A stretch of 22,025 bases of DNA from a virus, in the IMG/VR virus record IMGVR_UViG_3300025646_000432, positions 1 to 22,025 of that record, one strand, 5' to 3'. Shown here one piece after another: positions 504-22,025 of the stretch. The notes beneath the pieces were generated by a model. It was not told the origin of the DNA. It saw only the letters and a list, made by a program, of their open reading frames with translations, and ran no database searches. How positions within the stretch are numbered: the stretch's first letter is position 1; each line of letters begins with the position of its first letter. A program made the position numbers and the translations under genes.

Positions 504-700
504 AAGTAGAAGTATTATTGAATGGGACAACTAAGATTGTACTTATTCCAGAAAATGAAATAGAAATTGCTATACTAAAAACTGTGTCTGTAGGTGGCAT
601 AGATGCTACAGTTATTACGCAGCATACCCAGATATTAGATAAAGTTATCCAAGAAGGATTAGTAATATCTCCAAGTAAAAGTGATGCTAACAAAAGTTAA
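500..700 (+). CDS. Small hypothetical protein (66 aa)
   Basis: Its start codon overlaps the stop of the secreted-protein gene (ATGA), so it is probably translationally coupled. The 66 residues look like a compact beta-rich module (VEVLLNGTTKIVLIP, then EIEIAILKTVSVGG) followed by a short helix and a polar tail. The C terminus overlaps the start of the radical SAM gene by 17-20 bases. There is no signal peptide, cysteine motif or membrane segment. Family not recognised. A 71-codon antisense frame over the same bases is taken as a shadow. Confidence 0.65.
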   Translation: MKVEVLLNGTTKIVLIPENEIEIAILKTVSVGGIDATVITQHTQILDKVIQEGLVISPSKSDANKS

Positions 701-1547
701 GAGAAAGTCTATGACCATAAGACCATCAGGGAGGTCAACTGATTTTATCAGCCCCTCCTTTGGTCATGGTTGTTTGTATAACTGTACTTACTGTTATATG
801 AAGAGACATAAGCTAGAAGGTTTAGATATTGCAACTAATACTTTGGATATACTAACAGCAATAGACCACCATGTGTGGTTTGCTGATGTAGAGAAACCTA
901 ATCAGACTGGTGATTTTATTACTTATGATATCTCATGCAATGAAGACTTTGCACTGCATGCTAAGTATCATGAATGGGAAAGAATATTTGAGTTCTTTAG
1001 AGATCACCCTCTTGCTATGGGTTCATTTGCTACTAAGTATGTGAATCCTGATCTTTTAAAATTTGATTCTGCTTATAAGATAAGAATCAGATTCAGTGTA
1101 ATGCCAGAGAAGTTAAGACAGATATTAGAACCTAATACAAGTACTATCCAAGATAGATTAGATGCGGTAGTTAAGTTTCAATCAGCAGGCTATGACGTAC
1201 ATCTTAATTTTAGTCCTGTAGTAGTATACGATGAATGGTTAGATGATTATAAAGAATTGTTTAAGCAAATACAATCTACAATGCAAAGAGATATGTGGAG
1301 TTATACTGCTGTAAAAGCTGAAGTAATATTTCTTACGCATAATGAAGCTAAGCATGAGTACAATCTAGCCCATCAACTACCAGGAGAAGAGTATCTATGG
1401 TGTCCTGACATTCAGGAAAGTAAGACATCCCAATATGGTGGTGAAAACATCAGGTATAAGCATGATCTAAAAGCTGAGTACATCAGACAATGGGCTGAGC
1501 TACATGATCAAATTATCCCTTGGAATACAATACGTTATATATTTTAA
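684..1547 (+). CDS. Radical SAM protein of the spore photoproduct lyase (SPL) family
   Basis: A 287-residue radical SAM enzyme. The [4Fe-4S] motif CX3CX2C is Cys30/Cys34/Cys37 in the segment GCLYNCTYCYMKRH. Further on, RIRFSV...EPNTS...RLDAV...AGYDVHLNFSPVV...W..DYKELF matches from memory the order of conserved blocks in Bacillus SplB (RFRFS, EPGTS, RLAA, AGYK, W..GYFELF). Cys85, in YDISC, sits where SplB has its hydrogen-donor cysteine. Known SPL uses a 5'-deoxyadenosyl radical to reverse 5-thyminyl-5,6-dihydrothymine. The protein lacks about 60 N-terminal residues compared with SplB (about 342 aa). I chose ATG 684 over GTG 681. The fold is secure; the lesion substrate is inferred and could be another UV dimer or something else. 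Confidence 0.82.
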   Translation: MLTKVKRKSMTIRPSGRSTDFISPSFGHGCLYNCTYCYMKRHKLEGLDIATNTLDILTAIDHHVWFADVEKPNQTGDFITYDISCNEDFALHAKYHEWERIFEFFRDHPLAMGSFATKYVNPDLLKFDSAYKIRIRFSVMPEKLRQILEPNTSTIQDRLDAVVKFQSAGYDVHLNFSPVVVYDEWLDDYKELFKQIQSTMQRDMWSYTAVKAEVIFLTHNEAKHEYNLAHQLPGEEYLWCPDIQESKTSQYGGENIRYKHDLKAEYIRQWAELHDQIIPWNTIRYIF

Positions 1548-1550
1548 GAT

Positions 1551-2000
1551 ATGATAAAAATTGGAAGTGCAAAATATAATGTAACTAACTTAGATCAAGT
1601 TGGTAGAAAAGTTGCTAAAGCTTTGACAAAAGATGTTGTTAATGAACACTATCTTATAACAAAGGATAAAGACAGCAATCTTAATTATTTATGGTGGATG
1701 TATAAAGATGGAAATAAGAAAGATCAATTTAATCCTTTTATTTTTAATTTTGAATTGAATCTTTTAGAAGCTCTTGATATTATAAATAAAGATCAATCAG
1801 ATCACATATCTCAAATGTTAAATTCAGAAGACTTAGATAATACTTATATTGCTGTGTGTAGTATATCTTATTTAAGAAAGGAAAGAATTGAGAAGCACGG
1901 TGAATATGGAAAATCTGATAATGTATCTGATGAGTTTAAAGAAGTTATTGATAGATACCCATCTATCGTAGTTAAAAGTTATTTATCTTTTGGAAAATGA
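1551..2000 (+). CDS. Hypothetical protein with an 'MLNSxDxDN' helical motif
   Basis: A 149-residue soluble protein three bases after the SPL-like gene, in the same apparent operon; its stop overlaps the next start (ATGA). Family not recognised. The middle (about residues 84-102) carries ISQMLNSEDLDNTYIAVCSI, which closely resembles a segment in two other proteins of this window (genes at 10244-10645 and 13335-14396). The shared core is ML-(N/S)-S-x-D-x-DN followed by an Ala in a hydrophobic helix, reminiscent of one HEAT-like helical unit. The rest is charged, with no enzyme motif, signal peptide or membrane segment. Confidence 0.7.
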   Translation: MIKIGSAKYNVTNLDQVGRKVAKALTKDVVNEHYLITKDKDSNLNYLWWMYKDGNKKDQFNPFIFNFELNLLEALDIINKDQSDHISQMLNSEDLDNTYIAVCSISYLRKERIEKHGEYGKSDNVSDEFKEVIDRYPSIVVKSYLSFGK

Positions 2001-2251
2001 GTGAAGAAGAATTAATAGAACTAAACTTTGATAAAGTAGTAGTTACTATAGAAGAAAGCGGTGATAAAAATGATTATTACTACTACAAATATAATCTTAA
2101 CGACAATTTTGTATTAATGAGTAATCCTTCTGATGAAAAAGAAGCTGGTCAGTGGTATGTAAATGATTGGGATTTAGGTATAAAAATTAAAGATATAGAA
2201 GATGTTGAATTATTGATCGCTCTTTTCAGAAAGTGGTCCAAGATCGTCTAA
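1997..2251 (+). CDS. Small acidic hypothetical protein (84 aa)
   Basis: It begins on the stop codon of the preceding gene (ATGA at 1997) and is probably translationally coupled. The protein is acidic and tyrosine-rich (DKNDYYYYKYN), with a tryptophan-containing segment (QWYVNDWDLGIKIKDIED) and a C-terminal helix. No family recognised. Its last 42 bases overlap the tail of a gene on the opposite strand (2210-2533), so the two transcripts converge through coding sequence. If the - strand gene were spurious, this one would be unaffected. Confidence 0.65.
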   Translation: MSEEELIELNFDKVVVTIEESGDKNDYYYYKYNLNDNFVLMSNPSDEKEAGQWYVNDWDLGIKIKDIEDVELLIALFRKWSKIV

Positions 2252-2533
2252 ACTTGCGTCAACGGGCTCTTTACTTGTATGTAATTGTAGTTTTTCATTA
2301 ATTATAGACATTAGAACTATTGATGCAGCTTCTTTCCAACAGTCATCGATTGTAACAGAAAGCACATCTAATGGTATAGGCGTTTTTAATATTTCTCCAG
2401 TTCTTAAATGAATATTGGTTCCTGCTTCAGGATTTCGTATATTTGTAAAAGATAACCTGGTGATATGAGTAACATTTAACTGTTCAAAATATCTTTGACC
2501 ATCTTGTTCTCTAAATTCAATTCCTATAAACAT
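2210..2533 (-). CDS. Hypothetical protein (107 aa) on the reverse strand
   Basis: The only substantial open frame between the flanking + strand genes, so probably real despite its isolated orientation. Its 107 residues start with beta-like stretches (MFIGIEFREQ, VTHITRLSF, TNIHLRTGEILKTPIPLDVL), then a helix (DDCWKEAASIVLMSIINEK) and a polar tail. The pattern 'G..IHLRTGEI' followed by 'PLDVL...IDD' loosely recalls small FlbD-like beta domains, but this is too weak to call. The C terminus overlaps the + strand gene ending at 2251 by 42 bases. The start faces the next + strand gene across about 39 bases. Confidence 0.6.
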   Translation of the reverse strand: MFIGIEFREQDGQRYFEQLNVTHITRLSFTNIRNPEAGTNIHLRTGEILKTPIPLDVLSVTIDDCWKEAASIVLMSIINEKLQLHTSKEPVDASLDDLGPLSEKSDQ

Positions 2534-2572
2534 ACTTTAAGTGTATAATATAAAGTTAATAATTTTTTGCTT
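2534..2572. promoter_or_regulatory. Short divergent intergenic region, candidate promoter pair
   Basis: These 39 bases separate the starts of a - strand gene (ends 2533) and a + strand gene (ATG 2573), so promoter elements for both directions should lie here or just inside the genes. The region is almost pure A/T and contains TATAAT at about 2544-2549 and a T-run before the + start. No convincing Bacteroidota-type TTTG / TAnnTTTG pair at correct spacing was found. The assignment rests mainly on geometry. Confidence 0.3.
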
Positions 2573-2959
2573 ATGTTTTTAACCACATTAGTAAAAGCCG
2601 ACTCTAAGTTAGGCTATGTTGATAAAAAAGATAAACTTCTTTATCAATTGTTTCTTGATAAAATAAAAGATGGACAAGAAGTAGAAGTATATTTTTCTAT
2701 TAAAGGATCAAAAGCAAATGCTTCTCAAATTGCTAAAGTTCACGCTTCTATACGTGAAATAGCGTCTGAATTAGGATTTTCTTTTGAAGATATGAAACTG
2801 ATTATAAAAGAAAAAGCAGGGCTTTGTTTTGAAGTACAAGACAGTGATGCTAAAAAAGTAGTGTGCAAATCTTTTGCTGATTGCAGTTACGCAGAAATTA
2901 GTTTGGCAATTGAAGCTTGTAATCAAGTAGCTGAAAAGAATAATATTATGCTTGGGTAG
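2573..2959 (+). CDS. Small phage protein, possibly NinB-like recombination factor
   Basis: A 128-residue protein starting at ATG 2573 (an in-frame TTG lies six bases upstream). The order of elements is a lysine-rich strand pair (KIKDGQEVEVYFSIKGSKA), a helix (SQIAKVHASIREIASELG), a helix leading to a glycine (FEDMKLIIKEKAGLCFEV), then KSFADCSYAEISLAIEACNQVAEKNNI. The pattern 'Q..K.H..IREIA...G....MK..IK...' and 'KS...CS..E....IE' resembles phage NinB/Orf-type recombination mediators as I remember them, but no residue is diagnostic. It overlaps the tail of a - strand gene by 14 bases. A role in DNA metabolism is only a suggestion. Confidence 0.7.
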   Translation: MFLTTLVKADSKLGYVDKKDKLLYQLFLDKIKDGQEVEVYFSIKGSKANASQIAKVHASIREIASELGFSFEDMKLIIKEKAGLCFEVQDSDAKKVVCKSFADCSYAEISLAIEACNQVAEKNNIMLG

Positions 2960-3260
2960 GTTCTACGTAACCTTCATCTCCAGGCTCTAATATCTCTTTT
3001 TCTACATATAAGTTATTTTCTTTAGCTGTTCTTTCAATTTCAGCAAGTAGTAACGTAACTGTATAAAAAGATCTTTCAAAGTCATTCATATCTTCGTATT
3101 TACCTGTCATGATTTTCTTAAGAGACTCTTCTCTTTTTGCATCATCAGTAACAGTTTGAAATAAAAAGTATGATAGAGCTTTTGTCATAAGATAATAAGA
3201 CTTGTTTACTTTAATTTCTACAAGTGCATCATCTTTGAGTTCTTTTACATTAATTGCCAT
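2946..3260 (-). CDS. Hypothetical protein (104 aa) on the reverse strand
   Basis: A 104-residue reverse-strand protein lying tail-to-tail (14-base overlap) with the preceding + gene and head-to-head with the uracil-DNA glycosylase gene, 30 bases away. No competing + strand frame covers it. Sequence: a short beta-like N terminus (INVKELKDDALVEIKVNKSYY), then mainly helices (TKALSYFLFQTVTDD, LKKIMTGKYEDM, FERSFYTVTLLLAEIER) and an acidic Gly/Pro tail. This looks like a small helical phage protein, perhaps structural or a chaperone, but nothing specific is visible. Its strand differs from all replication genes around it. Confidence 0.65.
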   Translation of the reverse strand: MAINVKELKDDALVEIKVNKSYYLMTKALSYFLFQTVTDDAKREESLKKIMTGKYEDMNDFERSFYTVTLLLAEIERTAKENNLYVEKEILEPGDEGYVEPTQA

Positions 3261-3290: not shown

Positions 3291-4004
3291 ATGTCAAACA
3301 AATTAGATATTGAAGATATCAAAGAGAAAGTTGCTGAAAAACTAAAACCTTCTGGATGGGACAGAATTCTTAGAGGTTTTATTTACAGTAAAGAGTTTGA
3401 TGATATCATTATTACTTTAGCTAAACAAAGCAAAGATGGTAAAAGATTTACTCCGGTATTAAAAAATTGGTTTAGGGCTTTTGAAGAATGTCCTTATGAA
3501 GACTTAAAAGTAATTATTGTAGGACAAGATCCTTATCCAGGATTAAATCATGCTGATGGTATTGCTTTTAGTTTGAGTAATTCTGATACAATTCAACCAA
3601 GTTTAGAGTATATGTTTAAAGCTATAAATGATACTGTATACGATGGAATGGGTGTTTGCACAGATATGAATTTAAAAAGATGGTCTAATCAAGGAGTATT
3701 ACTATTAAACACTGCTTTAACTACTGTAATTGGTAAAGTAGGACAACATCATATAGTATGGCAACCTTTTATGGCATATCTATTTGACTGGTTAACTTGG
3801 AATAACAATGGTCTTGTTTATATTTATTTGGGTAAAAAAGCTGAAGAGTGGTCACATGCTGTAAATGATAACAATTACAAGTTGTTTGCTACACATCCTG
3901 CATCAGCACTTTACAATAATCTAACTGATTGGGACTCAAATAATGTTTTTAAAACAGCAAACGAAATTCTTAAGAAGAACTATAACACAGAAATAAATTG
4001 GTAA
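3291..4004 (+). CDS. ung: Uracil-DNA glycosylase, family 1 (UNG type)
   Basis: A 237-residue family 1 uracil-DNA glycosylase, which cuts the N-glycosidic bond of uracil in DNA to start base-excision repair. The water-activating motif is GQDPY at 78-82 (Asp80), followed by PG, then HADGIAFS. A uracil-pocket segment LLLNTALTT lies near 137-145, and the C-terminal minor-groove/His motif is HPAS at 202-205 (His202). It differs from the usual family 1 strings: GQDPYP instead of GQDPYH, and HPAS instead of HPSP. Length is typical (about 220-240). It is the first gene of the + strand replication block; together with the MazG-like gene at 19593 it fits control of uracil in phage DNA. UDG is a recurrent gene of crAss-like phages. 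Confidence 0.93.
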   Translation: MSNKLDIEDIKEKVAEKLKPSGWDRILRGFIYSKEFDDIIITLAKQSKDGKRFTPVLKNWFRAFEECPYEDLKVIIVGQDPYPGLNHADGIAFSLSNSDTIQPSLEYMFKAINDTVYDGMGVCTDMNLKRWSNQGVLLLNTALTTVIGKVGQHHIVWQPFMAYLFDWLTWNNNGLVYIYLGKKAEEWSHAVNDNNYKLFATHPASALYNNLTDWDSNNVFKTANEILKKNYNTEINW

Positions 4005-4776: not shown

Positions 4777-5784
4777 ATGAGTGATGTAAAAAAGACTCCC
4801 AAGAAAAAGTGGAATAGTCAAAGAGAAGGTTTTCAAGAATCTTTAAAATACTTGCAAGGTAGAATGCAAGGGCAAATAAAGAGTATAAGAACACCTTGGG
4901 CAAAGTTTAATGATGCAACCACAGATGGTTTAGAATGGAATACTATCAATGTTATTGGTGGTAGACCAGCAAGTGGTAAGACATTAATAGCTGAACAAAT
5001 TGTTAGAGAATCTTTTGTTCTAAATCCAGGCGAAGACTTTAGAGTACTACAGTTTCAATTTGAAATGCTTGCAAGAACTTCAGCAATACGTGAGTATTCA
5101 AGTATTGTTGGTAAATCTTATAAGTATCTATGTAGTGCTGATGGTAAACTAACGACAGAAGATTTACAAAAATGTTATGATTACGCAAAAAAGAAAGTAC
5201 AATATCCAATAGATGTAGTTGAAACTCCTTGTACAGTTGACGATTTCAAGGAAATAGTTAGGGATTATATGCACTTTCATGCAAGTTATGATTCAGAAGG
5301 GAATATAAAATTCAAGAATGTTATTATTACTATTGACCACTCTTTATTATTTAAGAAAGCATCTTATGAAAAAGATAAGCATGACATGTTAAATAATTTA
5401 GGAGAAGCTTTAACAGCTCTTAAGAAAATTTATCCTGTAATGTTTATTGTGCTTAGTCAGCTCAATAGAAATATTGATAATCCTGAGAGAAATGAAGATG
5501 GTAAATATGGTAATTATATTCTTGAGTCTGATCTATTTGGTGCTGATGCTTTATTGCAACATGCTGATAATCTTATCGGTATAAATAGACCTGCAAAACA
5601 AAAGATTAGATTTTATGGTCCTGATAGGTATGTGATTGACGATGACAGAGTTTTAGTACTACACTTTCTAAAATGTAGAAATGGTGATACGAGAATGAGT
5701 TTCTTTAGAGCTGAATTTGAAAAGATGAAAATAGTAGAGATGATTACACCTCCTCAACAGGAGAAACGATTAACAACCAAATAA
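4777..5784 (+). CDS. DnaB-type replicative helicase (RecA-core only)
   Basis: A 335-residue SF4 helicase core that would unwind the phage replication fork. The Walker A motif is GRPASGKT (62-69); the Walker B acidic position is in VIITIDHSLLF (Asp187); a later motif VLSQLNRNID is the DnaB/RecA H3-type segment (SQLNR); near the C terminus AD.LLQHADNLIGINRP and the basic LHFLKCRNGDTRMSFFRAEFE match the end of DnaB-family ATPases. Only about 50 basic residues precede the ATPase, so the DnaB N-terminal domain that normally contacts primase is missing. This is usual for some phage helicases and means loading and primase coupling may depend on other proteins, possibly the 197-aa product upstream. 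Confidence 0.9.
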   Translation: MSDVKKTPKKKWNSQREGFQESLKYLQGRMQGQIKSIRTPWAKFNDATTDGLEWNTINVIGGRPASGKTLIAEQIVRESFVLNPGEDFRVLQFQFEMLARTSAIREYSSIVGKSYKYLCSADGKLTTEDLQKCYDYAKKKVQYPIDVVETPCTVDDFKEIVRDYMHFHASYDSEGNIKFKNVIITIDHSLLFKKASYEKDKHDMLNNLGEALTALKKIYPVMFIVLSQLNRNIDNPERNEDGKYGNYILESDLFGADALLQHADNLIGINRPAKQKIRFYGPDRYVIDDDRVLVLHFLKCRNGDTRMSFFRAEFEKMKIVEMITPPQQEKRLTTK

Positions 5785-5793
5785 TTTTTAATT

Positions 5794-6330
5794 ATGAGTT
5801 TAACAACAAAAAGTAGTTCTGTAAACAGAAAAGAAAAGACAGAGTTGTTATTTAAGCATCATGAGTGGAAATTTAAACTTCTTGGTGAAGATGACCCACT
5901 TTTCATTGCTAAAGTAGCATATCCTCCTCCCGGAAAAAATGAGTATTTCATTGGAGTCTTTCCAAGTGAAATAAGAAAAGGTAAAGATATCTATACTGAA
6001 TTTACAAGTTCAGATTTAGATGTTGAAGATCCTGAAAGAACTCTTTATAAGTGGAGATATAATCCTCACTATGAAGAAGAATATGAAAAAACAGAAGTCA
6101 GTGCTACAGGAAGTTTTAGATATCTAATTCCTGTTGCTGAATTAGTTAAGATTCAGTTTGATGAAGAACCTACATCTGAACCAGCACTATTTCCAAATTT
6201 TGAAGAAATAATGAATCCTGATTTAGATGCACCACTTAGTCAAATGACTATTAGAGACTTAGCTGCTATTATGCTATCTAAACCAGTAAGTACTAAGAGT
6301 TGGCTTAATGATTTAATTAAAAACAAATGA
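5794..6330 (+). CDS. Hypothetical protein between helicase and Sak4-like ATPase
   Basis: A 178-residue soluble acidic protein, start in the context TTTTTAATTATG. Its stop overlaps the next start (ATGA). The N-terminal two thirds look beta-rich (HHEWKFKLL, LFIAKVAYPPPG, EYFIGVFPSEI, GSFRYLIPVAELVKIQF). After an acidic linker (DEEPTSEPALFPNFEEIM) comes a helical C-terminal segment (APLSQMTIRDLAAIML, then PVSTKSWLNDLI) that looks like a protein-binding helix pair. No catalytic motif seen. Its tight position between helicase and recombination ATPase suggests a replisome or recombination accessory role, which is inference only. Confidence 0.75.
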   Translation: MSLTTKSSSVNRKEKTELLFKHHEWKFKLLGEDDPLFIAKVAYPPPGKNEYFIGVFPSEIRKGKDIYTEFTSSDLDVEDPERTLYKWRYNPHYEEEYEKTEVSATGSFRYLIPVAELVKIQFDEEPTSEPALFPNFEEIMNPDLDAPLSQMTIRDLAAIMLSKPVSTKSWLNDLIKNK

Positions 6331-7046
6331 GTATAATACTTCCTACTAAAAAAGTAAAGGCAGAAAGAGTAAATCCCAAGAGGATGATAATATACTCTAA
6401 ACCTAAAACTGGTAAAACAACAGCTTTTGCTGGTTTAGATGATAATCTCATTATTGATTTAGAAAATGGTAGTGATTATGTTGAAGCTCTTAAAGTTAAA
6501 GCTAATAATTTACAAGAATTATTAGACTTAGGTAAAGCAGTAAAAGAAGCTGGTAATCCATATAAGTTTGTTACAGTAGATACTGTGACTGCATTAGAAG
6601 ATATGGTAATGCCTCTTGCAATAAAACTGTATAGAAAAACGCCTATGGGTAAAAACTTTGATGGAGATAGTGTAATTACATTACCGAATGGTGCTGGTTA
6701 TTTATATATTCGTCAAGCATTTTTTCAAGTATTAGACTTTATTGATACACTTGCTCCTACAATCATCTTGTCTGGTCATATTAAAGACAAACAAGTAGAT
6801 GATAAAGGTGAGATGGTAATGTCTGCAAATATTGATTTAACAGGTAAAATAAAATCTTTAATTTGTGCAAATGCTGATGCAATTGGATATATGTACCGAA
6901 AAGGAAACCAAACTATTCTTAGTTTTAAGACTGCAGAAGAGGTTACTTGTGGTGCAAGACCAGAACATTTACGAAATCAAGAGATTGTAGTAACTGAGAT
7001 GATTGATGGTGTCCTTAAAACAAATTGGGACAAAGTATTTATTTAA
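6327..7046 (+). CDS. Sak4-like / AAA_24 P-loop ATPase
   Basis: A 239-residue RecA-fold ATPase of the phage type often annotated AAA_24 or Sak4. Walker A is SKPKTGKT (24-31); the next strand ends NLIIDLENGSDYVEALKV; a Walker B-like strand is KFVTVDTVTALEDM (around 78-92); a further strand TIILSGHIKDKQVDDKGE has the His-containing sensor region; then NIDLTGKIKSLICANADAIGYM, which is typical of this group. Known Sak4 proteins act in single-strand annealing recombination, stimulated by SSB. Here an SSB-like gene follows 20 bases later, the usual pairing. It overlaps the preceding stop by ATGA. Family assignment is from motif order and context. Confidence 0.82.
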   Translation: MSIILPTKKVKAERVNPKRMIIYSKPKTGKTTAFAGLDDNLIIDLENGSDYVEALKVKANNLQELLDLGKAVKEAGNPYKFVTVDTVTALEDMVMPLAIKLYRKTPMGKNFDGDSVITLPNGAGYLYIRQAFFQVLDFIDTLAPTIILSGHIKDKQVDDKGEMVMSANIDLTGKIKSLICANADAIGYMYRKGNQTILSFKTAEEVTCGARPEHLRNQEIVVTEMIDGVLKTNWDKVFI

Positions 7047-7798: not shown

Positions 7799-8776
7799 AT
7801 GATTTCAACAAAAAACTTAATTGGGAATGTTAATGATGTTCCTGCAGAGTGGGTTTTTGAACATTATTTAGGATTAAGTGAAAAACTTACAGGACAAGAT
7901 GTAAAGATACACTCTGTCTTTAAAAGTGAGAAGACTCCTTCAATGTTTATATATTTTAAACCTTCTAATAATCAATATAAATACAAAGATTTTTCTTCCG
8001 GTAAACAAGGGGATAAAATCAACTTAGTTGCTGAGTTAAATAGTATAACTTATGGACAAGCAGCAATAAGAATTTGTGCAGATTATGAAAAGTATTTAAA
8101 AGATAATAATTATCACTCTGTAAATGAGTATAAAATACAAAATAAGTATAGAGTATCTGATTTTGAAATGAGGCACTGGACAAATATTGATGGTAAGTTT
8201 TGGATGAAATTTAAAATTGATTCAAAAATGCTAGATGAATATAATGTTTGTGGATTATCTTATTTCACTATGCAGAAAGAAGGCGAGGGTAGCAGATCTG
8301 AAATTGTATTTAAAGGAAATTATATCTATGGATATTTTAGAGATGATGGTACTTTATATAAAATATATCTCCCGAATAATCCAAATAAGAAATTTATCAA
8401 AGTGCAGAACTATATTCAAGGTATGGATCAGCTTACTTATGATAAAGACTATTTAGTTATCACATCTTCTTTGAAAGATCTAATGGCTTTTAGAAAGTTG
8501 GGTTATAAAAATGCAGAGGCTATTGCTCCCGATAGTGAGAATACTATGATTGCAGAACAGTATATTAAATCTTTGAAGAAAAAGTATAAGAATATATGTG
8601 TTTTATTTGATAATGATGAAGCGGGTATAACTGCCGCTAAAAAATATCAAGAAAGATATAATTTAAATTATGTAATGCTTGATATGGATAAAGATTTATC
8701 AGATTCAGTAAAAACATATGGTTTAACAAATGTAAAAGAAACATTACATCCTTTATTAAAAACCGCTTTAATTTAA
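7799..8776 (+). CDS. DnaG-type primase with degenerate zinc motif and TOPRIM domain
   Basis: A 325-residue primase-like protein that would make RNA primers at the phage fork. The N terminus retains the outline of the DnaG zinc domain (SEKTPS at 43-48, then YKYKDFSSGKQGD up to 72), but the cysteines that bind zinc are gone. The TOPRIM domain follows: VITSSLKD (SSLKD 223-227), FDNDEAG with Asp271 and Asp273, and LSDSVKTYG. The first TOPRIM acidic residue, usually Glu in 'EG..D', is replaced by Ser. Family membership is clear from motif order; activity could be altered or supported by other residues. It follows a terminator and precedes a coiled-coil gene by 6 bases. Confidence 0.85.
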   Translation: MISTKNLIGNVNDVPAEWVFEHYLGLSEKLTGQDVKIHSVFKSEKTPSMFIYFKPSNNQYKYKDFSSGKQGDKINLVAELNSITYGQAAIRICADYEKYLKDNNYHSVNEYKIQNKYRVSDFEMRHWTNIDGKFWMKFKIDSKMLDEYNVCGLSYFTMQKEGEGSRSEIVFKGNYIYGYFRDDGTLYKIYLPNNPNKKFIKVQNYIQGMDQLTYDKDYLVITSSLKDLMAFRKLGYKNAEAIAPDSENTMIAEQYIKSLKKKYKNICVLFDNDEAGITAAKKYQERYNLNYVMLDMDKDLSDSVKTYGLTNVKETLHPLLKTALI

Positions 8777-10244: not shown

Positions 10245-10645
10245 TGAATTTAACAATTTCTGAAGCAGATAATTTATTATCTATGCTTAATTCAAATGAT
10301 AAAGATAATATGTATATAGCTTTTAAAGCTATTGAAGCCCATGATTTTTCAGGACCCGACTTTGGATATCTTATTTATTTGTATAAATTTAGTAACACCT
10401 CAATACAAGATTGGTCTGAAAACGCGCCAACACCGCTTAACAAATTAAAAAAATCTTGTAATAATGAGTTGCCTACTCTTACACATGCAAAAAGTATTAC
10501 ACTTTTAATTGAGAATGAGGCAAACCCTGATGTTATAAATGCTTATATAGAAAAGCATATAAAAGATATAAATAGCATGTTTTATAATATGGGATATCCT
10601 ATGGAGAATATTGATTTAACCCTTAATCTAAAAACTAATGAGTAA
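10244..10645 (+). CDS. Hypothetical protein with an 'MLNSxDxDN' helical motif
   Basis: A 133-residue protein beginning at a TAATG overlap and ending in an 8-base overlap with the metallopeptidase gene. Near the N terminus (about 9-34) it carries NLLSMLNSNDKDNMYIAFKAIEAHD, which shares 10 of 13 residues across its core with the 149-aa protein at 1551-2000 and resembles a segment of the 353-aa protein at 13335-14396. After this come aromatic-rich helices (FGYLIYLYKFSNTSI) and helical repeats to the end. No enzyme motif. Its coupling to the metallopeptidase/VWA gene suggests it could belong to that cluster. Confidence 0.7.
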   Translation: MNLTISEADNLLSMLNSNDKDNMYIAFKAIEAHDFSGPDFGYLIYLYKFSNTSIQDWSENAPTPLNKLKKSCNNELPTLTHAKSITLLIENEANPDVINAYIEKHIKDINSMFYNMGYPMENIDLTLNLKTNE

Positions 10646-11873
10646 AGAAGCAACTTTAGGTAAAGCATCTAAAGAACTTATGTGGAAAGAGCCCTTCTAT
10701 GGGTTCTTTCTTATTATGTTAAACAAAATTTGGAATAATAAACTTGTACCTACTGCCGGTGTAAGTAAAAATGGTATTAACTATCAGCTTACAATAAATG
10801 AAGATTTTTGGATGAGTTTATCTGAAAATCATAGAATTGGTTTATTAAAGCATGAGTTATTACATATTGCATATTTTCATCTAAGTAAATTCTTTGAATT
10901 CTCAGATAGAAAACTGGCAAATATAGCTATGGATATGGAAATCAATCAATATATTGATAAAGATTTTCTTCCTGATGGTGGTATTGATATAGATGATTAT
11001 AAAGATCTTAATCTTGAACGAAAAGCAGGTACTCGTTATTATTATGAAGCTTTACAAAAAGCAAAAAATAAGAAAGATCAAACTGGTACATCAGGTGATG
11101 AAAATTTTGATAAGCTTTGTGATGCTCTTGACGAAGGTGGCGACATTATTATTATCGGCAATGCTCCAGGAAATGGAGAAAAAGAAGTTAATATTCCTAA
11201 TCATGGTACATGGGAAGAATTTGATAATTTAAGTGAAGCTGAGCAAAAGATTATGCAAAAGCAATTAGATAGAATTATTCAAGAAGTTGCTGAGCAGACT
11301 GAAAAGAAAAGAGGTACTATACCTGGTCACATTAACGATTATCTTATTGCTATTAATGAAATAGAGCCTCCTAAGTTTGATTGGAAAGGATATCTTAGAA
11401 GATTTACTGGCACGAGTACAAAAATCTTTACAAAGAAGATTAGAAGAAAAGAAAATAAGCGCTATTCAGATAATCCAGGGTTAAAGATTAAAATGAAGCA
11501 ACACATGTTATTAGGTATTGATACTTCAGGTTCAGTAAGTGATAATGAGTTACAAGAGTTTATGAATGAGATTTATCACATTTATAAAACAGGTGTTGAT
11601 ATCACTATTATTCAATGTGATACTATAATCAGATCTATAGAACCTTATAAAGGTAAATTCGAAATGGCTTTTGGTGGTAGAGGTGGTACTGAATTTGACC
11701 CGGTTTTGGAATATTATAATGCTAATCTAAAGAAATATACAAGTCTTGTATATTTTACTGATGGTGAATGTGATACTTCAGTTAAACCTAAGAACCCTGT
11801 TTTATGGGTATTATCTGAACAGTCAAATATGAATAATTCTCTACCTGGTAAAGTAATTAAATTAGAGTTATGA
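10638..11873 (+). CDS. DUF2201-type metallopeptidase-like / VWA domain protein
   Basis: A 411-residue two-domain protein. The N-terminal domain has a zinc metallopeptidase signature HELLH at 72-76 (His72, Glu73, His76), with His81 as a possible third ligand, inside LLKHELLHIAYFHL. A linker region rich in charged residues follows (about 130-270). The C-terminal VWA-like domain has an intact MIDAS start DTSGS (Asp295, Ser297, Ser299) and a later Thr/Asp region GRGGTEFDP and LVYFTDGECD. DUF2201-VWA proteins work in known cases next to MoxR-type AAA+ ATPases, as here (12067-13242). The usual idea is ATPase-driven handling of a metal- or protein-bound target. The substrate here is unknown. Confidence 0.85.
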   Translation: MSKEATLGKASKELMWKEPFYGFFLIMLNKIWNNKLVPTAGVSKNGINYQLTINEDFWMSLSENHRIGLLKHELLHIAYFHLSKFFEFSDRKLANIAMDMEINQYIDKDFLPDGGIDIDDYKDLNLERKAGTRYYYEALQKAKNKKDQTGTSGDENFDKLCDALDEGGDIIIIGNAPGNGEKEVNIPNHGTWEEFDNLSEAEQKIMQKQLDRIIQEVAEQTEKKRGTIPGHINDYLIAINEIEPPKFDWKGYLRRFTGTSTKIFTKKIRRKENKRYSDNPGLKIKMKQHMLLGIDTSGSVSDNELQEFMNEIYHIYKTGVDITIIQCDTIIRSIEPYKGKFEMAFGGRGGTEFDPVLEYYNANLKKYTSLVYFTDGECDTSVKPKNPVLWVLSEQSNMNNSLPGKVIKLEL

Positions 11874-12066: not shown

Positions 12067-13242
12067 ATGGCTCAAGTAAAACTAAACATTGATGACCTAA
12101 AGAATTTTATGGGACATATGGTTAAGAATAACCAGCATATTCAAGCTCAGGGAAAAGTACCTGTAGCTGTTAACATTGAAGGTGAAGCAGGTCTTGGTAA
12201 GACTTCATCTATTTTACAACTAGCAAAAGAAATGGATATGGCTGTAGTTAAACTTAACTTAAGTCAAATCGAAGAACTTGGTGATTTAATTGGTTTTCCA
12301 TTTAAAGAATTTGAGATAGAAAATAAAGAAGGTAAAACTAAATGGATTCAAGATACTTTACTTGAGACTTATGTTAAAAGTGGATTTAAACCAACCGGTC
12401 AAAGTAGAATGTCGCATGCGTCTCCTGAATGGATTCAGGGACAAAGCGAGGGTGGTTTCTTGATTCTTGATGATTATACTCGTGCTGATCATAGATTTAT
12501 GCAAGCTACTATGGAATTAATTGATAGACAAGAATATATCTCTTGGAAACTCCCTAAGAACTGGCATATTGTATTGACTACTAATCCAGACAACGGTGAT
12601 TACAATGTTACCAGTCTTGATATTGCTCAAAAGACTCGATTCATTTCTGTTGAAGTAGATTTTGATGTTAGTGTATGGGCTAAGTGGGCAGAGAATGTAG
12701 GTATTGACGGTAGATGTATTAACTTTTTGTTGATGAATCCTGAAGTAATTACTAAATCTGTTAATCCTAGATCTATTACTACTTTCTTTAATGCAATCAG
12801 TTCTATACCTAAGTTTGAAGATGAGTTACCTCTAATTCAGATGATTGGTGAAGGTTCTGTAGGTGATGAAACAGCTAGTTTATTTACTATGTTTATTAAT
12901 AATAACTTAGATAAAATAATTAGTCCTCAAGATATTATTACTAACCAAAATGAAGCTTATGTTCTTGGAGCATTAAGCTCATCTGTTGGTAAAGATGATA
13001 ACTTTAGAGCTGATATTTCTAGTGTTATTACAACAAGAATTATAAATTACTGTTTAACACATGCTGATAAACATGGAGTAAATGATGCTATGATCAATAG
13101 ATTGATTAAGCTTACTACAGATTGTGATTCGTTTACAGATGATCTTAGATACTATATGGTAAAAGAAATACTAAATGGTAACAAGGTTAAGTTTCAAAAA
13201 CTAATGATGAATCCTGCGGTAGTCAAGATGGCTGTCAAGTAA
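12067..13242 (+). CDS. MoxR-type AAA+ ATPase
   Basis: A 391-residue AAA+ ATPase. Walker A is GEAGLGKT (39-46); Walker B is GGFLILDDYTRAD (Asp135, Asp136); a sensor 1-like segment is WHIVLTTNPDNGDYNVTSLD, and a following KTRFISVEVDFDVSVWAKWAENV matches the region after sensor 1 in MoxR-type proteins. The C-terminal portion (from about 210) is helical lid plus an extension. MoxR ATPases act as chaperones for VWA proteins, which agrees with the VWA/metallopeptidase gene just upstream. Tandem hairpins follow its stop. Membership is solid; the client is unknown. A specific role in phage DNA metabolism is suggested only by location. Confidence 0.85.
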   Translation: MAQVKLNIDDLKNFMGHMVKNNQHIQAQGKVPVAVNIEGEAGLGKTSSILQLAKEMDMAVVKLNLSQIEELGDLIGFPFKEFEIENKEGKTKWIQDTLLETYVKSGFKPTGQSRMSHASPEWIQGQSEGGFLILDDYTRADHRFMQATMELIDRQEYISWKLPKNWHIVLTTNPDNGDYNVTSLDIAQKTRFISVEVDFDVSVWAKWAENVGIDGRCINFLLMNPEVITKSVNPRSITTFFNAISSIPKFEDELPLIQMIGEGSVGDETASLFTMFINNNLDKIISPQDIITNQNEAYVLGALSSSVGKDDNFRADISSVITTRIINYCLTHADKHGVNDAMINRLIKLTTDCDSFTDDLRYYMVKEILNGNKVKFQKLMMNPAVVKMAVK

Positions 13243-13334: not shown

Positions 13335-14396
13335 ATGAAACACTATAAATATATAAGTGGATATTCAGACTATTCACTTAATGATTTTACTGATATTATT
13401 GGAGCATTTAGTGATAATTATGTTTTGAACAATGCTCCCTTTACTCTTCATTCTGATTATACAATAAATCAAAATGAAAAACTATATTTTTTACCAGGCA
13501 CAAGTGTTCCTAGAATTAAATTAAAAGACATATTTGCTCAAACAAAATCAAAAACCACAAGAAATATTGCTGAGGCTACCAAAGTAATAGGTTCTGTAAA
13601 ATCTTTAGATAAACTACTAGACGCTACTTGGTATTATTGGGTAACTGTTCCAAAATTTCTGGAATTCTTAGAAATAGCACTTAACAAAGGAGATGTTCAT
13701 CCAGATGATTATAAAGATACTATAGATCATGTAATAAATGATGAAATTATACTAACTGATTATGCTTTTATTAGAAATCTTAAATGTAATGAAAGCATTA
13801 CATTGACACCTGAAATAGATTATATTCAAGGATCTCGTAAATTTTTACATCTTGAAGATAAATATTTTGATATATGGGATGAGCTTAAGGACTGCACTGT
13901 CTATGATGAAGCTACTCTTATCAGTTTAGTAAATGGTGACGATTCTACAAGTATTGATGAAAAAATGTTTGAGTCTTTAAGTCAAATGTTATCTAGTTCT
14001 GATGAAGATAATCATGTATTAGCTTTAGAGATAATGGCTAATTCTAATTACTCAGATAGTCTTTATTACTTATGTCTATTATTTGAACAGTTTCATTATA
14101 TAATCTCTAATACTAGAACTCGTAATCATGTAAACTTTAAATCTTTAGTTTATTACATGGGATTCGCAAGTCCTAATTATGTCAGTATGACTAAAGATTC
14201 AATTGTTGAATTATTGGTTGAAAGAGATGTTTTTACACCAAAAATGGCAATGGATCTTCTGCAGAAATATAATGAAGATATTATTAACTATGGAAGTAGT
14301 GAAAAATTTGCTGTTACTAAAGTAAGTTACTCAAAAGATGTGTTAGAATATTTAAATAATAAAAAAGTAAATGAGTCAGTTGTTGATACCGAATAA
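13335..14396 (+). CDS. Hypothetical protein (353 aa) with an 'MLSSxDxDN' motif
   Basis: A 353-residue soluble protein, start in the leader context TTTTTAATTATG. The N-terminal half includes YSDYSLNDFTDIIGAF and FLPGTSVPRIKLKDIF; the central region is helical (KFLEFLEIALNKGDVHP). Around residues 211-238 it has SLSQMLSSSDEDNHVLALEI, related to segments in the proteins at 1551-2000 and 10244-10645, followed by YYLCLLFEQFHYII and further helices. I do not recognise a family or a catalytic motif. The last 26 bases overlap the start of the nuclease gene, so the two are probably translated together. Confidence 0.8.
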   Translation: MKHYKYISGYSDYSLNDFTDIIGAFSDNYVLNNAPFTLHSDYTINQNEKLYFLPGTSVPRIKLKDIFAQTKSKTTRNIAEATKVIGSVKSLDKLLDATWYYWVTVPKFLEFLEIALNKGDVHPDDYKDTIDHVINDEIILTDYAFIRNLKCNESITLTPEIDYIQGSRKFLHLEDKYFDIWDELKDCTVYDEATLISLVNGDDSTSIDEKMFESLSQMLSSSDEDNHVLALEIMANSNYSDSLYYLCLLFEQFHYIISNTRTRNHVNFKSLVYYMGFASPNYVSMTKDSIVELLVERDVFTPKMAMDLLQKYNEDIINYGSSEKFAVTKVSYSKDVLEYLNNKKVNESVVDTE

Positions 14397-15387
14397 TGAA
14401 TTAGAAGAATTTTACAATAACAAATTCTACTTTAGTTACAGTAGTATAAATAAGCTTTTATTTTCACCCCAAGCTTTTTATAAACACTATATATTAAAAC
14501 AGAAAGAAGATCAAGTTGACGCTCATCTCGTTGCGGGAAGAGCGTTGCATTGTCTTCTGTTTGAACCTGATAATTTTGATGATTACTTTATAATGTTACC
14601 TGGTAAAATTCCTACAGATAGTAATAGGAAAATTATTGATCAAATATTTTATCATAATTACTTGCCAATGCAAAATGAATCACTAACTTTAGATGACTTT
14701 CCAGGTGATATTCTAGGACAACTCGTTGTAAACAACTTATACCAATCACTCAAAACAGACCCTCAAAGATTAGAAAAAATTCTTACTGATAATAACAAAG
14801 AGTATTTTGAATTTTTAAAACAGAAAGAAACAAAAACTGTTATTGACTCTAATGTAAAAGAACAAGCAGAAGAGAGTGTAAAAGTACTAAAAGCAAACGA
14901 CAAGGTTAATGCTTTACTCCAATTGGATCATGACAACTCTCAAAACGTCAAAGTGTTAAATGAATTAAAGTTACAATCTGATTCTGAAAATTATGATTTT
15001 GGCTATAAAGGTATTGTAGATAATATCGTTATAGATGACAATATAAAAACAGTATTTATTAATGACTTAAAAACAACTAATAAACCAATTCAAGATTTCC
15101 CTGCTTCAGTTGATTATTATCGTTATGATATACAAGCTGCAATTTATGCAATCTTAGTATATAATAACTTTATAAAAGAAAGATCAGATGCTTATGATTG
15201 GAACTTTGTATTTACTTTTATCGTTATAGATAAGTATAACCAAGTATATCCATATCAAGTGTCTGAGAGTACTCTAGCAAATTGGGAAAGTAATTTCTAT
15301 GGTATTACTGAAAGAGTAGATTACCATTATCGGCACAGAGATTATACTTTACCATACGAGCTAGCATTAGGTAATGTAAAACTCTAA
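14371..15387 (+). CDS. PD-(D/E)XK nuclease, RecB / exonuclease VIII-like
   Basis: A 338-residue nuclease of the RecB-like PD-(D/E)XK fold. The N-terminal motif FSYSSINKLLFSPQAFY and the GRALHCLLFEP segment (His60) match this group; the catalytic acid lies in GYKGIVDNI (Asp217); the D-x-K pair is INDLKTT (Asp232, Lys234); the helix after it, YDIQAAIYAIL (Gln255, Tyr259), is the QxxxY element. RecB-like phage exonucleases of this type trim DNA ends for recombination, which suits the Sak4-like ATPase and SSB-like protein upstream. Its start overlaps the preceding gene by 26 bases. The broad activity is secure; endo- versus exonuclease is not. Confidence 0.88.
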   Translation: MSQLLIPNNELEEFYNNKFYFSYSSINKLLFSPQAFYKHYILKQKEDQVDAHLVAGRALHCLLFEPDNFDDYFIMLPGKIPTDSNRKIIDQIFYHNYLPMQNESLTLDDFPGDILGQLVVNNLYQSLKTDPQRLEKILTDNNKEYFEFLKQKETKTVIDSNVKEQAEESVKVLKANDKVNALLQLDHDNSQNVKVLNELKLQSDSENYDFGYKGIVDNIVIDDNIKTVFINDLKTTNKPIQDFPASVDYYRYDIQAAIYAILVYNNFIKERSDAYDWNFVFTFIVIDKYNQVYPYQVSESTLANWESNFYGITERVDYHYRHRDYTLPYELALGNVKL

Positions 15388-16431: not shown

Positions 16432-18333
16432 ATGCGTACACATTGGGTAATGGACTACGAAACTTTAAGTAATTGTTTTGTAGCAGTATTTGAAGATATA
16501 AAAACAACAGATACAGAAGTATTTGTAATACATGATCTTCAAAATGATATTGATAGCTTACTTGAATTTCTTAGAAGAAATATTACTCTTAATGAATGGC
16601 ATGTTTCTTTTAATGGTCTTGGGTTTGATAGTCAGATTACTGAGTATATACTTAGATATTCTGAACAACTTCAAGACATGGGAGGATGTGAAATTGCATC
16701 TTGGTTGTATGATAAAGCTCAGAATATTATTTCGAGTCAAAGTGAGGGTAGATTTTTAGAATATAGCCCTAGAGATCTGCAGATAAACCAAGTTGATGTA
16801 TTTAAACTAAACCATTGGGATAATCCAGCAAAAAGATCTAGTCTTAAATGGATTCAGTATACAATGGATTGGGAAAACATAGTTGATATGCCTATTCATC
16901 ATAGTACAGCAATAACAACTTTTGATCAAATAGATGAGATAATTCACTATTGTAAGAATGATGTTAGCTCTACTAAGAAAATTGCATTCTTAAGCAAAGA
17001 TCAAATTGCTTTGAGAAAGCAGTTAACTGATGAATATAATATCAATTTGTTTAGTGCATCCGAACCAAAAATTTCTAAAGAGTTGTTTCTACACTTCTTA
17101 AGTAAGAAGTTAGATATGAAAAAATATGATTTAAAAAATCTTAGAACCAAGCGTGATAAGATTATTGTAAACGATATTGTTCTAGACTATATCAGTTTTA
17201 AAACAGCAACATTTCAAAAACTACTAAGTAAATTTAAAGAGGTTGTAATATACTCAGATCAAACTAAAGGTGGTTTTAAATATTCAATACAATATAAAGG
17301 TGTTAAAACTGATTTTGGTTTAGGTGGTATTCATGGTGCCAGAACAAGTAAAGTCTATGAGTCTAACGATGATATGATCATTATGACTTCAGATGTTACT
17401 AGTTTTTATCCTAATCTTGCTATTAGAAATGGTTGGTCTCCTGCACACTTACCAAAGAAAGAATTCTGTGAACAGTATGAATGGTTCTTTGAAGAAAGAA
17501 AGAAGATACCAAAATCTGATATTAGAAACTATGTCTATAAGATTATTCTTAATTCAACATATGGCTTAAGTAATGATGAGAATAGTTTTCTATATGATCC
17601 AGAGTTTACAATGAGGATAACAATTAATGGTCAATTAAGCTTGGCTATGTTATATGAAATGATTACTGAAGAAATTCCAGGTGCTGTTCCACTAATGCAG
17701 AATACAGATGGTCTTGAGACTATGATTCCTAGAGAATACATAGATAAATACATGGAGATCTGTGAGCGTTGGGAAAAGATAACTAATTTACAGCTTGAGC
17801 ATGATAAGTACCAAAAATTGGTACTCGGTGATGTAAATAATTATATTGCTGTTGCTGAAAATGGTAAAGCTAAGTGTAAAGGCAGATTTGAATTTGAGAA
17901 TCTTGCTCTACATAAAAACAAAAGTTTTGCGGTAATTCCTCAAGCGATATATAATTACTTTGTAAATGGTATTAATCCTGAAGATTATCTAAAAAGTAAT
18001 AGAAACATATATGATTATTGCGGTGGTAAAAAGATAAAAGGTGATTGGAAATTTTATGAAGAGTTTGTCCAAGACGGTAAACATACTACTCAAGACATAC
18101 AAAGTACTATAAGATATTATGTATCAAACAAGGGTAGTAAGATTATTAAATATAACTATACTGACAAGAGAAGCACACAGATTGAAGCCGGGAAATGGTT
18201 GCAAACTTTATTTATTGATTACAAAGAATATGATTTTGAGAAGTATGATATTAACTATGATTATTATCTAAGTAAGATTCGTAAAGAAATTGAGAATCTA
18301 GAACCAAATGTTAATCAATTAAGTTTATTTTAA
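16432..18333 (+). CDS. DNA polymerase, family B, with 3'-5' exonuclease
   Basis: A compact 633-residue family B polymerase, likely the phage replicase. Exonuclease motifs: DYE (Asp8, Glu10) in WVMDYETL; FNGLGFD (Asn61, Asp66); YCKND (Tyr173, Asp177). Polymerase motifs: A is DVTSFYP (Asp321, Tyr326); B is KIILNSTYG (Lys370, Asn374, Tyr377); C is QNTDG (Asp426), where the first Asp of the usual DTD is Asn. The palm inserts are short, explaining the small size. The protein ends QLSLF (629-633), which fits the bacterial beta-clamp-binding consensus QL(S/D)LF. The gene follows a hairpin terminator and ends three bases before the DUF932-like gene. Confidence 0.94.
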   Translation: MRTHWVMDYETLSNCFVAVFEDIKTTDTEVFVIHDLQNDIDSLLEFLRRNITLNEWHVSFNGLGFDSQITEYILRYSEQLQDMGGCEIASWLYDKAQNIISSQSEGRFLEYSPRDLQINQVDVFKLNHWDNPAKRSSLKWIQYTMDWENIVDMPIHHSTAITTFDQIDEIIHYCKNDVSSTKKIAFLSKDQIALRKQLTDEYNINLFSASEPKISKELFLHFLSKKLDMKKYDLKNLRTKRDKIIVNDIVLDYISFKTATFQKLLSKFKEVVIYSDQTKGGFKYSIQYKGVKTDFGLGGIHGARTSKVYESNDDMIIMTSDVTSFYPNLAIRNGWSPAHLPKKEFCEQYEWFFEERKKIPKSDIRNYVYKIILNSTYGLSNDENSFLYDPEFTMRITINGQLSLAMLYEMITEEIPGAVPLMQNTDGLETMIPREYIDKYMEICERWEKITNLQLEHDKYQKLVLGDVNNYIAVAENGKAKCKGRFEFENLALHKNKSFAVIPQAIYNYFVNGINPEDYLKSNRNIYDYCGGKKIKGDWKFYEEFVQDGKHTTQDIQSTIRYYVSNKGSKIIKYNYTDKRSTQIEAGKWLQTLFIDYKEYDFEKYDINYDYYLSKIRKEIENLEPNVNQLSLF

Positions 18334-20146: not shown

Positions 20147-20178
20147 AGGGGGATCTTCGGGTCCCCCTTTTCTTTTTT
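20147..20178. terminator. UUCG-loop hairpin between convergent blocks, likely bidirectional
   Basis: GGGGGATC (20148-20155) pairs with GGTCCCCC (20160-20167), with a C(UUCG)G tetraloop and one G-U pair. A47-T68 extends it. A T-run follows on the + side. On the - side ATTTTA follows, so it may also stop the reverse transcript from the large gene ending at 20177. It marks the strand switch. Confidence 0.88.
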
Positions 20179-22025
20179 ATTTAAGATTTTCAAACATCTC
20201 TGCTTTCTTAATAGCCCATTCAGGTGACCAGTTTTTACCTTTAATACCAAATAATGAAAAGAAGTGATTCCACAATTTGTATTTTCCTTCATCTTGCCAT
20301 GCATAAGGCCCTACAGCTCTTTTATAATATGCTTTATCGCTACCTGTTACAATATAGAATAAATCTGTAATTAATTTAGCATATAAATCTAAAGTAGGTC
20401 CTGTAACAATTGTAGTACTATCTGTAAACTCTAACCAATCATTAACACCTAATCCTGGTAATGGTATGAACATTTCATTTTCTTTACGTATCATGATTAA
20501 TTGATATAATACATGATTTGCTGCCCAACCAAAAGCTCCATATGTTTCTTCTCTACTTCGAATTTTATTAAAACGATCTTCATCTCCAGAGTCATAACCA
20601 AATAATAATACTACTGCCATATATAATAAAGCTACATAAAGACCTTCAGATATCACTTTAGTTATTGCAATTTTATCTTCCTTACTCATCAGAGGCCAAT
20701 AATTTTTAGCATCTGTTACTAATTTATACATAGACTGAAAAGCAGTAATATAATATCCTTTAGTTGTAGTACCTAAATCCCAATCATATACTTCACCCCA
20801 TCTATTTTCTTTTGATAAATCTGCTTGGAATCTATTTAAAAACATAGGTAATGCAAACTTTCTATAGAAGGTACCTAGTCTATATAGCAGATATTTATTA
20901 GCTTGTGCACTGTCTACATCATCAGTCATACCATTTAACTTTTTACCAAGACCTTTTATTTTCAATCTAAAATCTAAAAACTTATCGTTTTTGTAAATAG
21001 TTATATCATCACCGACTTGAATAGAGTCTACATCTTTTATTTTATTTATTTTTATTAACTCTTCTACAGTTACTTTATATTGTTTTGCTATAGATTCAAG
21101 AGTATCGCCTTCAGTAAATTCATGAGTGAGACCTTCAGTACCATATCTAGGATCAACACCTTGTTTCAATACTAACTGTTTTTCAGAATTTAATTCCCAC
21201 GCATCAATATATCTTATCTGTTTAACAGAACCATCTGGTTGTACTTGATCTACTTTTTTTCTATACATCATTGCTGCAAAAAGAGTCAATCCTTCTTGAA
21301 CTTCCATATGTGTTCTTGGATCATACATCCATGTACCATTTAAAAAGTCTTTAAGAAAAGTTCTAGATGTAGATTTTCCAAAATCAGCTTTAGTTTTACC
21401 TGTGATAGGATCAAAGTTTTCCATTAATTGGATCATTAAACTCTTCGGACCTTTAGAATAAACATCTTTTGTAGATAATTGTATCATCGCTTGGTGTGCC
21501 CATACTCTACCTAATGCTAATGATTGTGCATTTATATATTTTCCACCCGCTGTTTCAACAAGTGTTTGAAATAACATACCATATTTATTCTTTAAGGCTG
21601 CTGAGATATCTAAAGCTGCATAAGCTCTGTGAGCACTTCGCATTAAACCTTGCGCAATTTTAGTAATCTTTACAGAATCTTCTGAAAGAGCATCTTGACC
21701 TTGTCCATAGTATACTTTATCAATAAAATAATCTAAAGCTTGAGCTCTTTTATTATCAGTTCTTTCTGGTATAAATCTAGTTATTTTAGCATTTTTCTTA
21801 TATGTTAAACTTGCTTTATTTACATTTTTAATAGCATTAGCTGGGTCATTTAAAACATCTGATAAAGCTTCTGCAATAGGCAACCCATCTTTCAATGCCT
21901 CTTGAGCATTTAATGAATACATATATTCAGCAAGAGATTTCAATGGATCTTTAGAAACAACATTTTTATCCATTCGATATAACCCCCTAATAGGTACTGT
22001 TGTAATAGGTTGACCTTGTAAATCT
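20177..22025 (-). CDS. C-terminal part of a large, probably virion-associated protein with LysM (partial)
   Basis: On the reverse strand an open frame runs from the right edge to TAA at 20177-20179. ATG 21973 has the frame open upstream of it to the edge, giving about 616 residues in view, so the true start is outside. Numbered from that Met: a helical region to 250; a LysM domain about 284-328 (EGDTLESIAKQYKVTVEELIKINK then IQVGDDITIY); a helical region; a hydrophobic segment near 440-460 (GLYVALLYMAVVLLFGY); and a C-terminal tail. It is the first gene of an opposite-strand block. In crAss-like phages such blocks carry giant virion and RNA polymerase proteins, so this is likely a virion or ejected protein. 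Family itself not recognised. Confidence 0.8.
   Translation of the reverse strand, partial: DLQGQPITTVPIRGLYRMDKNVVSKDPLKSLAEYMYSLNAQEALKDGLPIAEALSDVLNDPANAIKNVNKASLTYKKNAKITRFIPERTDNKRAQALDYFIDKVYYGQGQDALSEDSVKITKIAQGLMRSAHRAYAALDISAALKNKYGMLFQTLVETAGGKYINAQSLALGRVWAHQAMIQLSTKDVYSKGPKSLMIQLMENFDPITGKTKADFGKSTSRTFLKDFLNGTWMYDPRTHMEVQEGLTLFAAMMYRKKVDQVQPDGSVKQIRYIDAWELNSEKQLVLKQGVDPRYGTEGLTHEFTEGDTLESIAKQYKVTVEELIKINKIKDVDSIQVGDDITIYKNDKFLDFRLKIKGLGKKLNGMTDDVDSAQANKYLLYRLGTFYRKFALPMFLNRFQADLSKENRWGEVYDWDLGTTTKGYYITAFQSMYKLVTDAKNYWPLMSKEDKIAITKVISEGLYVALLYMAVVLLFGYDSGDEDRFNKIRSREETYGAFGWAANHVLYQLIMIRKENEMFIPLPGLGVNDWLEFTDSTTIVTGPTLDLYAKLITDLFYIVTGSDKAYYKRAVGPYAWQDEGKYKLWNHFFSLFGIKGKNWSPEWAIKKAEMFENLK

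Follow-up and report, generated by a model that had tools for sequence, protein, structure and literature searches.

Textbooks give spore photoproduct lyase (SPL) as the remedy for a DNA lesion linked with spores and dry DNA, and the locus described here carries a gene of this kind in a virus. It lies in a 22,025-nucleotide stretch (the window, positions 1 to 22,025 of IMG/VR virus record IMGVR_UViG_3300025646_000432), where an initial annotation, made from the sequence alone, had recognized an SPL-like radical S-adenosylmethionine (SAM) enzyme at positions 684 to 1547. The open reading frame (ORF) runs from an ATG at 684 to a stop codon at 1545-1547, with a GTG at 681 as a possible alternative start, and database searches bore the annotation out. 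The predicted protein matches the Pfam SPL family (PF20903) over residues 7-286 (E = 6e-25, 88.3 bits), passing the cut-off of 27 bits; among NCBIfam models the best score is to TIGR03886, "spore photoproduct lyase family protein" (E = 4.8e-91, 305.5 bits, model positions 62-346), with the sporulation SPL model TIGR04070 far behind (E = 2.4e-23, 82.7 bits). In a phmmer search of the PDB, entries for Geobacillus SPL (5e-11) were the only significant sequence matches, and the block order of SplB (RFS, EPNTS, RLDA, AGY, W...YKELF) is present. The gene product is a shortened SPL-type radical SAM enzyme with a complete catalytic residue set, and the match is far beyond chance.

A structure comparison with SPL, which the initial annotation had proposed as a check, gave the same answer. 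The AlphaFold2 model of the window protein, built on a 43-sequence alignment, has a predicted local distance difference test score (pLDDT) of 94.4 and a predicted template-modeling score (pTM) of 0.91. Its six best structure matches in the PDB are all SPL, with template-modeling (TM) scores of 0.84-0.87 and root-mean-square deviations of 2.5-2.9 Å over approximately 290 columns (E values of approximately 1e-18 to 5e-20); the next radical SAM family is PFL activase, at a TM score of 0.52. Among the predicted viral structures of BFVD the best match reached a TM score of 0.64, and none was SPL-like at the level of the PDB SPL entries. Phages commonly carry other radical SAM proteins, and the window protein could in principle be one that edits tRNA, modifies peptides, or otherwise has RNA or protein as its substrate, its likeness to SPL reflecting ancestry alone; with TM scores of about 0.5 to such families and the donor cysteine and both relay tyrosines of SPL retained, we consider this very improbable.

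Catalytic residues were mapped by alignment with Bacillus SplB (Bs and Gt denote B. subtilis and Geobacillus SPL numbering). C91, C95, and C98 of SplB correspond to C30, C34, and C37 of the window protein, the CX3CX2C motif; Y97 and Y99 correspond to Y36 and Y38; and C141 corresponds to C85, which the annotation had placed correctly at the hydrogen-donor site. The roles of C141, Y97, and Y99 in the SPL radical relay are known (PMC3742179). In an alignment with 184 viral rows, C30 and C37 are present in all 184, C34 in 183, and the donor cysteine in 181, as it is in all 27 close homologues; Y36 and Y38 are invariant across these rows and 87 cellular rows. Neither of the two outcomes that the annotation had named as refuting it, placement of the structure in another radical SAM family or loss of the donor cysteine from close homologues, was thus observed. 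The donor position of the cellular rows is Cys in 31 (Bacteroidota, Myxococcota, Acidobacteriota, one Bacillus SplB, and two viral-looking contigs of metagenome-assembled genomes [MAGs]) and Glu in 56 (Actinomycetota, Alphaproteobacteria, Deinococcus, Cyanobacteria, and others), a distribution that requires three changes on the tree. By these residues, the phage enzymes are closer to true SPL at the active site than most of the sampled cellular TIGR03886 proteins. The radical relay can change without loss of SPL activity, as the Clostridium acetobutylicum enzyme shows by working with its donor cysteine elsewhere (PMC5368176); a Glu at the donor position therefore does not imply an inactive protein. 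The C. acetobutylicum enzyme uses C74, on the opposite side of the pocket, whereas in the phage protein the donor is placed as in B. subtilis and a Ser occupies the Gt S76 position.

Two families of known proteins frame the comparison. Cellular TIGR03886 proteins (from Deinococcus, Arthrobacter, Methylobacterium, Spirosoma, Rufibacter, and others) share 40-46% identity with the phage protein over its whole length, together with the motifs RP.GRS, CX3CX2C, FATK.VN, RFSLMP, LTHN, Q(E).K.S(Q/E).GG.N.RY, and (I/V)RY.F; the phage proteins differ from them in forming their own clade and in keeping the donor cysteine. Sporulation SPL (TIGR04070/SplB of B. subtilis and Geobacillus; PDB 4FHC-4FHG, 4K9R, and 4RH0) shares the fold, the cluster, the donor cysteine, the tyrosine pair, and the equivalents of Gt Lys174 and Tyr305, but identity is only about 21% and the phage protein has no link to sporulation. 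Photolyases of phages and cells and UV endonucleases likely serve the same purpose, repair of ultraviolet (UV) damage, with a fold and chemistry that differ from those of SPL.

The closest cellular relatives are encoded on Bacteroidota chromosomes (Rufibacter, Spirosoma, Fibrisoma, Adhaeribacter, and Mucilaginibacter; 44-46% identity). Genome contigs were scanned twice for a close cellular counterpart of the phage gene: phage-only patterns gave none, and mixed patterns returned relatives at 40-46% and two matches at 60-63% (L205 and L206), which we rejected as cellular copies because both sit in viral-looking MAG contigs. In a quick tree whose outgroup, Bacillus, is very distant, the phages fell beside Bacteroidota. 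In a careful unrooted tree, the phage clade is a supported unit (100/99) on its own branch, with all cellular groups together; Bacteroidota may therefore be, but need not be, the source of the clade. One Bacteroidota genome encodes a 293-amino-acid Cys-type SPL on a 353-kb contig that does not look viral (L365:17741-18619; G214 contig C6), possibly a cellular relative of the phage short form. Separately, plasmid 3 of Deinococcus deserti (L142) carries a TIGR03886 gene near the DNA-damage regulator gene ddrOP3, with one gene between them.

The gene sits in phage contigs, as the annotation had supposed. SPL-bearing contigs, up to 123 kb long, encode a terminase matching those of crAss-like phages (of Bacteroides, the Flavobacterium psychrophilum FpV type, and gut cr-phages) and a crAss-type portal, and a search of the long SPL-bearing viral records located TerL on most of them; the TerL of one record (G003) matches crAss-like records (cr130_1, cr55_1, Fpv20-type, and others) and phrog_6681/6547. 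The window itself has no terminase; its synteny and 70-74% identity to one such record (G001) support its assignment to a crAss-like phage (Crassvirales). A Bacteroidota host is plausible, since the syntenic phages are crAss-like and the TerL matches have Bacteroides and Flavobacterium hosts. The annotation had gone further, suggesting from a presumed non-spore-forming Bacteroidota host that the phage may use the enzyme, in a novel role, to repair UV lesions in tightly packed, dehydrated capsid DNA. The host stands as plausible; the non-spore-forming host is not novel by itself, because TIGR03886 proteins are common in non-spore-formers, many of them tolerant of UV or desiccation, and one relative is induced by UV-C in the desiccation-tolerant non-spore-former Curtobacterium (PMC12029717).

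A scan of viral stretches with the window protein alone showed that 178 of 180 encode relatives, the best 80 of the 178 at 69-80% identity and near full length, and a scan with an alignment query confirmed at least 580 IMG/VR stretches (580 of 599 among the matches listed). Among 50,697 GenBank phages there was no close relative, only a single weak match at 23% identity, and we found no report of a phage SPL in the open literature, subscription papers and preprints lying outside the search. Prevalence was sampled at distinct loci anchored on the uracil-DNA glycosylase (UDG) gene with at least 5 kb upstream: SPL is present in 16 of 32 (11 of the window type and 5 of a divergent type described below). 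Terminase-anchored sampling found it in 2 of 15, most contigs there being fragments of the structural module. SPL is a common accessory gene of this crAss-like lineage, and it is not essential everywhere, because about half of the syntenic loci lack it; at one (L373) the flanking genes abut. Such absences would fit a passenger gene that does nothing for the phage. We disfavor this explanation strongly, since mean column identity is 79% over 27 divergent phage copies and the ratio of nonsynonymous to synonymous substitution (dN/dS) among phage copies is 0.12-0.21, values to be read with caution because synonymous divergence exceeds 1 in some pairs. These figures point to purifying selection on the phage gene, and a further argument against a passenger comes from copies that are split.

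In 32 phage contigs, one (L391, positions 1175-3006) and 31 others recovered by a pattern scan (L459-L489), the SPL gene is interrupted exactly before the codon of cluster residue Cys37. The first ORF of L391 encodes SPL residues 1-36 followed by the N-half of an intein (TIGR01445, 35.1 vs 24.5 bits), and the second encodes an intein C-half ending in FANGILTHN, then Cys37 and the remainder of SPL. In all 29 contigs that cover the region completely, the landmarks are exactly 989 nucleotides apart and the halves lie in different frames, with both reading frames intact; the N-half is 98-101 amino acids long, the C-half has its own start codon, and the spacer in the split gene is 548 nucleotides. 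An antisense ORF of 283-303 amino acids with an HNH-like HH[IL]IP motif, for which Pfam gave no match, spans the insert and overlaps the N-half in 26 of these 29; three contigs, whose ends lie too close to the region, gave no result. The arrangement apparently represents a split intein that trans-splices SPL at the third cysteine of its cluster motif, and the retention of splice motifs and frames suggests that the spliced SPL product matters. Natural split inteins are known (e.g., PMC7090010); a narrow literature search found no report of one within SPL.

Other viral forms of the family were also seen. Other crAss-like phages encode, near UDG, a divergent second SPL-like protein of 280 amino acids with approximately 31% identity (L423:1902-2741, L425, L428, L439, L441, and L454); its cluster spacing is an unusual CX3CX4C (CFGGCVDTYC), and the donor cysteine is kept (D[VI]ACNTD). 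Outside the crAss-like clade, four viral contigs of 56-321 kb (L150-L153) carry cellular-type genes of the family, two of them Glu-type, and are likely separate acquisitions.

What, then, would the enzyme do? The best explanation, and one we hold to be probable, is that it is a light-independent lyase that reverses the spore photoproduct (SP), or a thymine lesion closely akin to it, in the DNA of the phage. It would be expressed in the infected cell together with the replication genes and would bind an SP-like thymine-thymine lesion in phage DNA. The [4Fe-4S] cluster on C30, C34, and C37 would cleave SAM, and the 5'-deoxyadenosyl radical would take H6 of the lesion; the C-C bridge would break, the thymine allyl radical would regain a hydrogen from C85, and Y38, together with Y36, would pass the radical back so that SAM is regenerated. 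The outcome would be direct reversal of the lesion, independent of light and with the DNA uncut. In favor of this explanation stand the family and fold, the mapped catalytic residues, their conservation, the selection on the gene, its place in the replication and recombination module, and the split-intein copies, together with the lack of a photolyase domain in 27 related records, the UV-C induction of the Curtobacterium relative, and the D. deserti gene near ddrOP3. We infer SP itself to be the substrate and the target to be lesions in virion DNA, formed before injection.

Several observations weigh against SP reversal in phage DNA. The window protein falls under both NCBIfam equivalog cut-offs (305.5 against 437.55 bits for TIGR03886 and 82.7 against 400 for TIGR04070), and truncation alone does not account for the TIGR03886 shortfall, as a Bacteroidota fragment of similar length reaches 462.7 bits. 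The N-terminal ~60 residues of Bs and Gt SPL and of cellular TIGR03886 proteins are absent from the window protein and the phage clade; a 66-amino-acid ORF overlapping the SPL start was considered as the missing N-terminus and rejected, as it shows no resemblance to the cellular N-terminus and occurs where SPL is lacking (L373 and L394). Gt S142, which adjoins the donor, is replaced by E87, and Gt R304 by Q250. To these must be added that about half of the syntenic loci lack SPL. Dehydrated or A-form DNA is where SP chiefly arises (PMC3949526), and we found no literature report of SP in phage capsids, nor of an assay of any TIGR03886 or phage-clade member.

Some of the same observations favor the main rival, that SPL chemistry is applied to another DNA substrate, either another pyrimidine lesion or a modified thymine made or removed in phage DNA modification. 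The residue changes beside the donor, the closer kinship to TIGR03886 than to sporulation SPL, the replication module shared with UDG, and the lack of reports of SP in phage particles would all fit such a substrate. All relay residues of SPL, including the donor cysteine, are nevertheless kept, the fold is far nearer to SPL than to any other radical SAM family, and no base-modification enzymes were recognized near SPL in the window; we therefore regard another substrate as a real but rather unlikely possibility. It is less likely still that the DNA from which the enzyme removes SP is that of the host, dried, frozen, or under UV stress, and not that of the virion, so that the infected cell stays usable. 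The many UV- or desiccation-tolerant non-spore-formers with cellular relatives, the UV induction of one of them, and the B-to-A DNA change on drying cited for non-spore-forming bacteria (PMC12029717) speak for it, but the gene lies within the phage replication module, and a full-score member occurs in only 2 of 297 sampled Bacteroidota genomes (one of them the sample center; one short chromosomal copy was found in addition), whereas the gene is common in these phages.

The coordinates of the gene, its catalytic codons, and its neighbors in the replication and recombination module are collected in the table.

Features of the window around the SPL gene and its replication and recombination module
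Feature	Position	Strand	Remarks
Small ORF, 66 amino acids	500..700	+	Overlaps SPL start; also in syntenic locus without SPL
SPL-family radical SAM protein	684..1547	+	287 amino acids; ORF, family searches, predicted fold
[4Fe-4S] motif CX3CX2C and relay tyrosines, C30-L-Y-N-C34-T-Y36-C37-Y38	771..797	+	Alignment; Y36/Y38 = Bs Y97/Y99
Cys85 codon, hydrogen-atom donor equivalent	936..938	+	Alignment; C141 Bs, C140 Gt
Lys118 codon	1035..1037	+	Gt SPL Lys174; invariant in family sample
Tyr251 codon	1434..1436	+	Alignment; Gt SPL Tyr305
Conserved gene directly 3' of SPL, no assigned function	1551..2000	+	80/110 distinct phage SPL loci
UDG	3291..4004	+	Same module; downstream of SPL in 56/70 loci
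DnaB-like helicase	4777..5784	+	Downstream of SPL in 40/57 loci
Sak4-like single-stranded DNA annealing protein	6327..7046	+	
DnaG-like primase	7799..8776	+	
Exonuclease VIII-like	14371..15387	+	
Phage family-B DNA polymerase	16432..18333	+	

Two other readings were rejected: a photolyase as substitute repair in phages lacking SPL, as a photolyase FAD domain was absent from 27 related phage records, and a defense system, as PADLOC gave no match. Two small minus-strand ORFs antisense to the replication module (2210-2533 and 2946-3260) are probably real genes, because they are conserved (in 45 and 98 loci, respectively). Positions 10638-11873 and 12067-13242 encode an adjacent DUF2201 metallopeptidase/VWA-like protein and AAA ATPase, recalling MoxR-VWA pairs; PHROG 1314 labels the first an HNH endonuclease, a label that its Pfam match does not support. 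A 598-amino-acid protein with an internal LysM-like stretch (20177-21973, minus strand), without a match in GenBank phages, starts the opposite-strand module. Finally, one 245,646-bp record (G022, L163) has two near-identical terminases separated by 127 kb; a single phage genome was probably duplicated in assembly.

The SPL family is already known outside spore-formers, and what is new is therefore the viral clade, which is large, short-form, and Cys-type, sits in the replication module of crAss-like phages, and is sometimes apparently trans-spliced. The clade offers a natural Cys/Glu contrast at the hydrogen-donor site that is useful for study of the radical relay, and a split-intein family located on a radical SAM cluster cysteine. 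More tentatively, and with less confidence than in lesion reversal as such, it is possible that this crAss-like lineage reverses SP formed by sunlight in its own packed virion DNA, in part of the lineage with an enzyme trans-spliced at an iron-sulfur cysteine. A complete catalytic set, widespread and selected in uncultured environmental phages, raises the question of whether SP accumulates in encapsidated DNA. Repair of a lesion hitherto associated with spores and desiccated cells may extend to viruses; if SP is indeed reversed in virion DNA, spore-type DNA damage and its repair would be carried by viruses.
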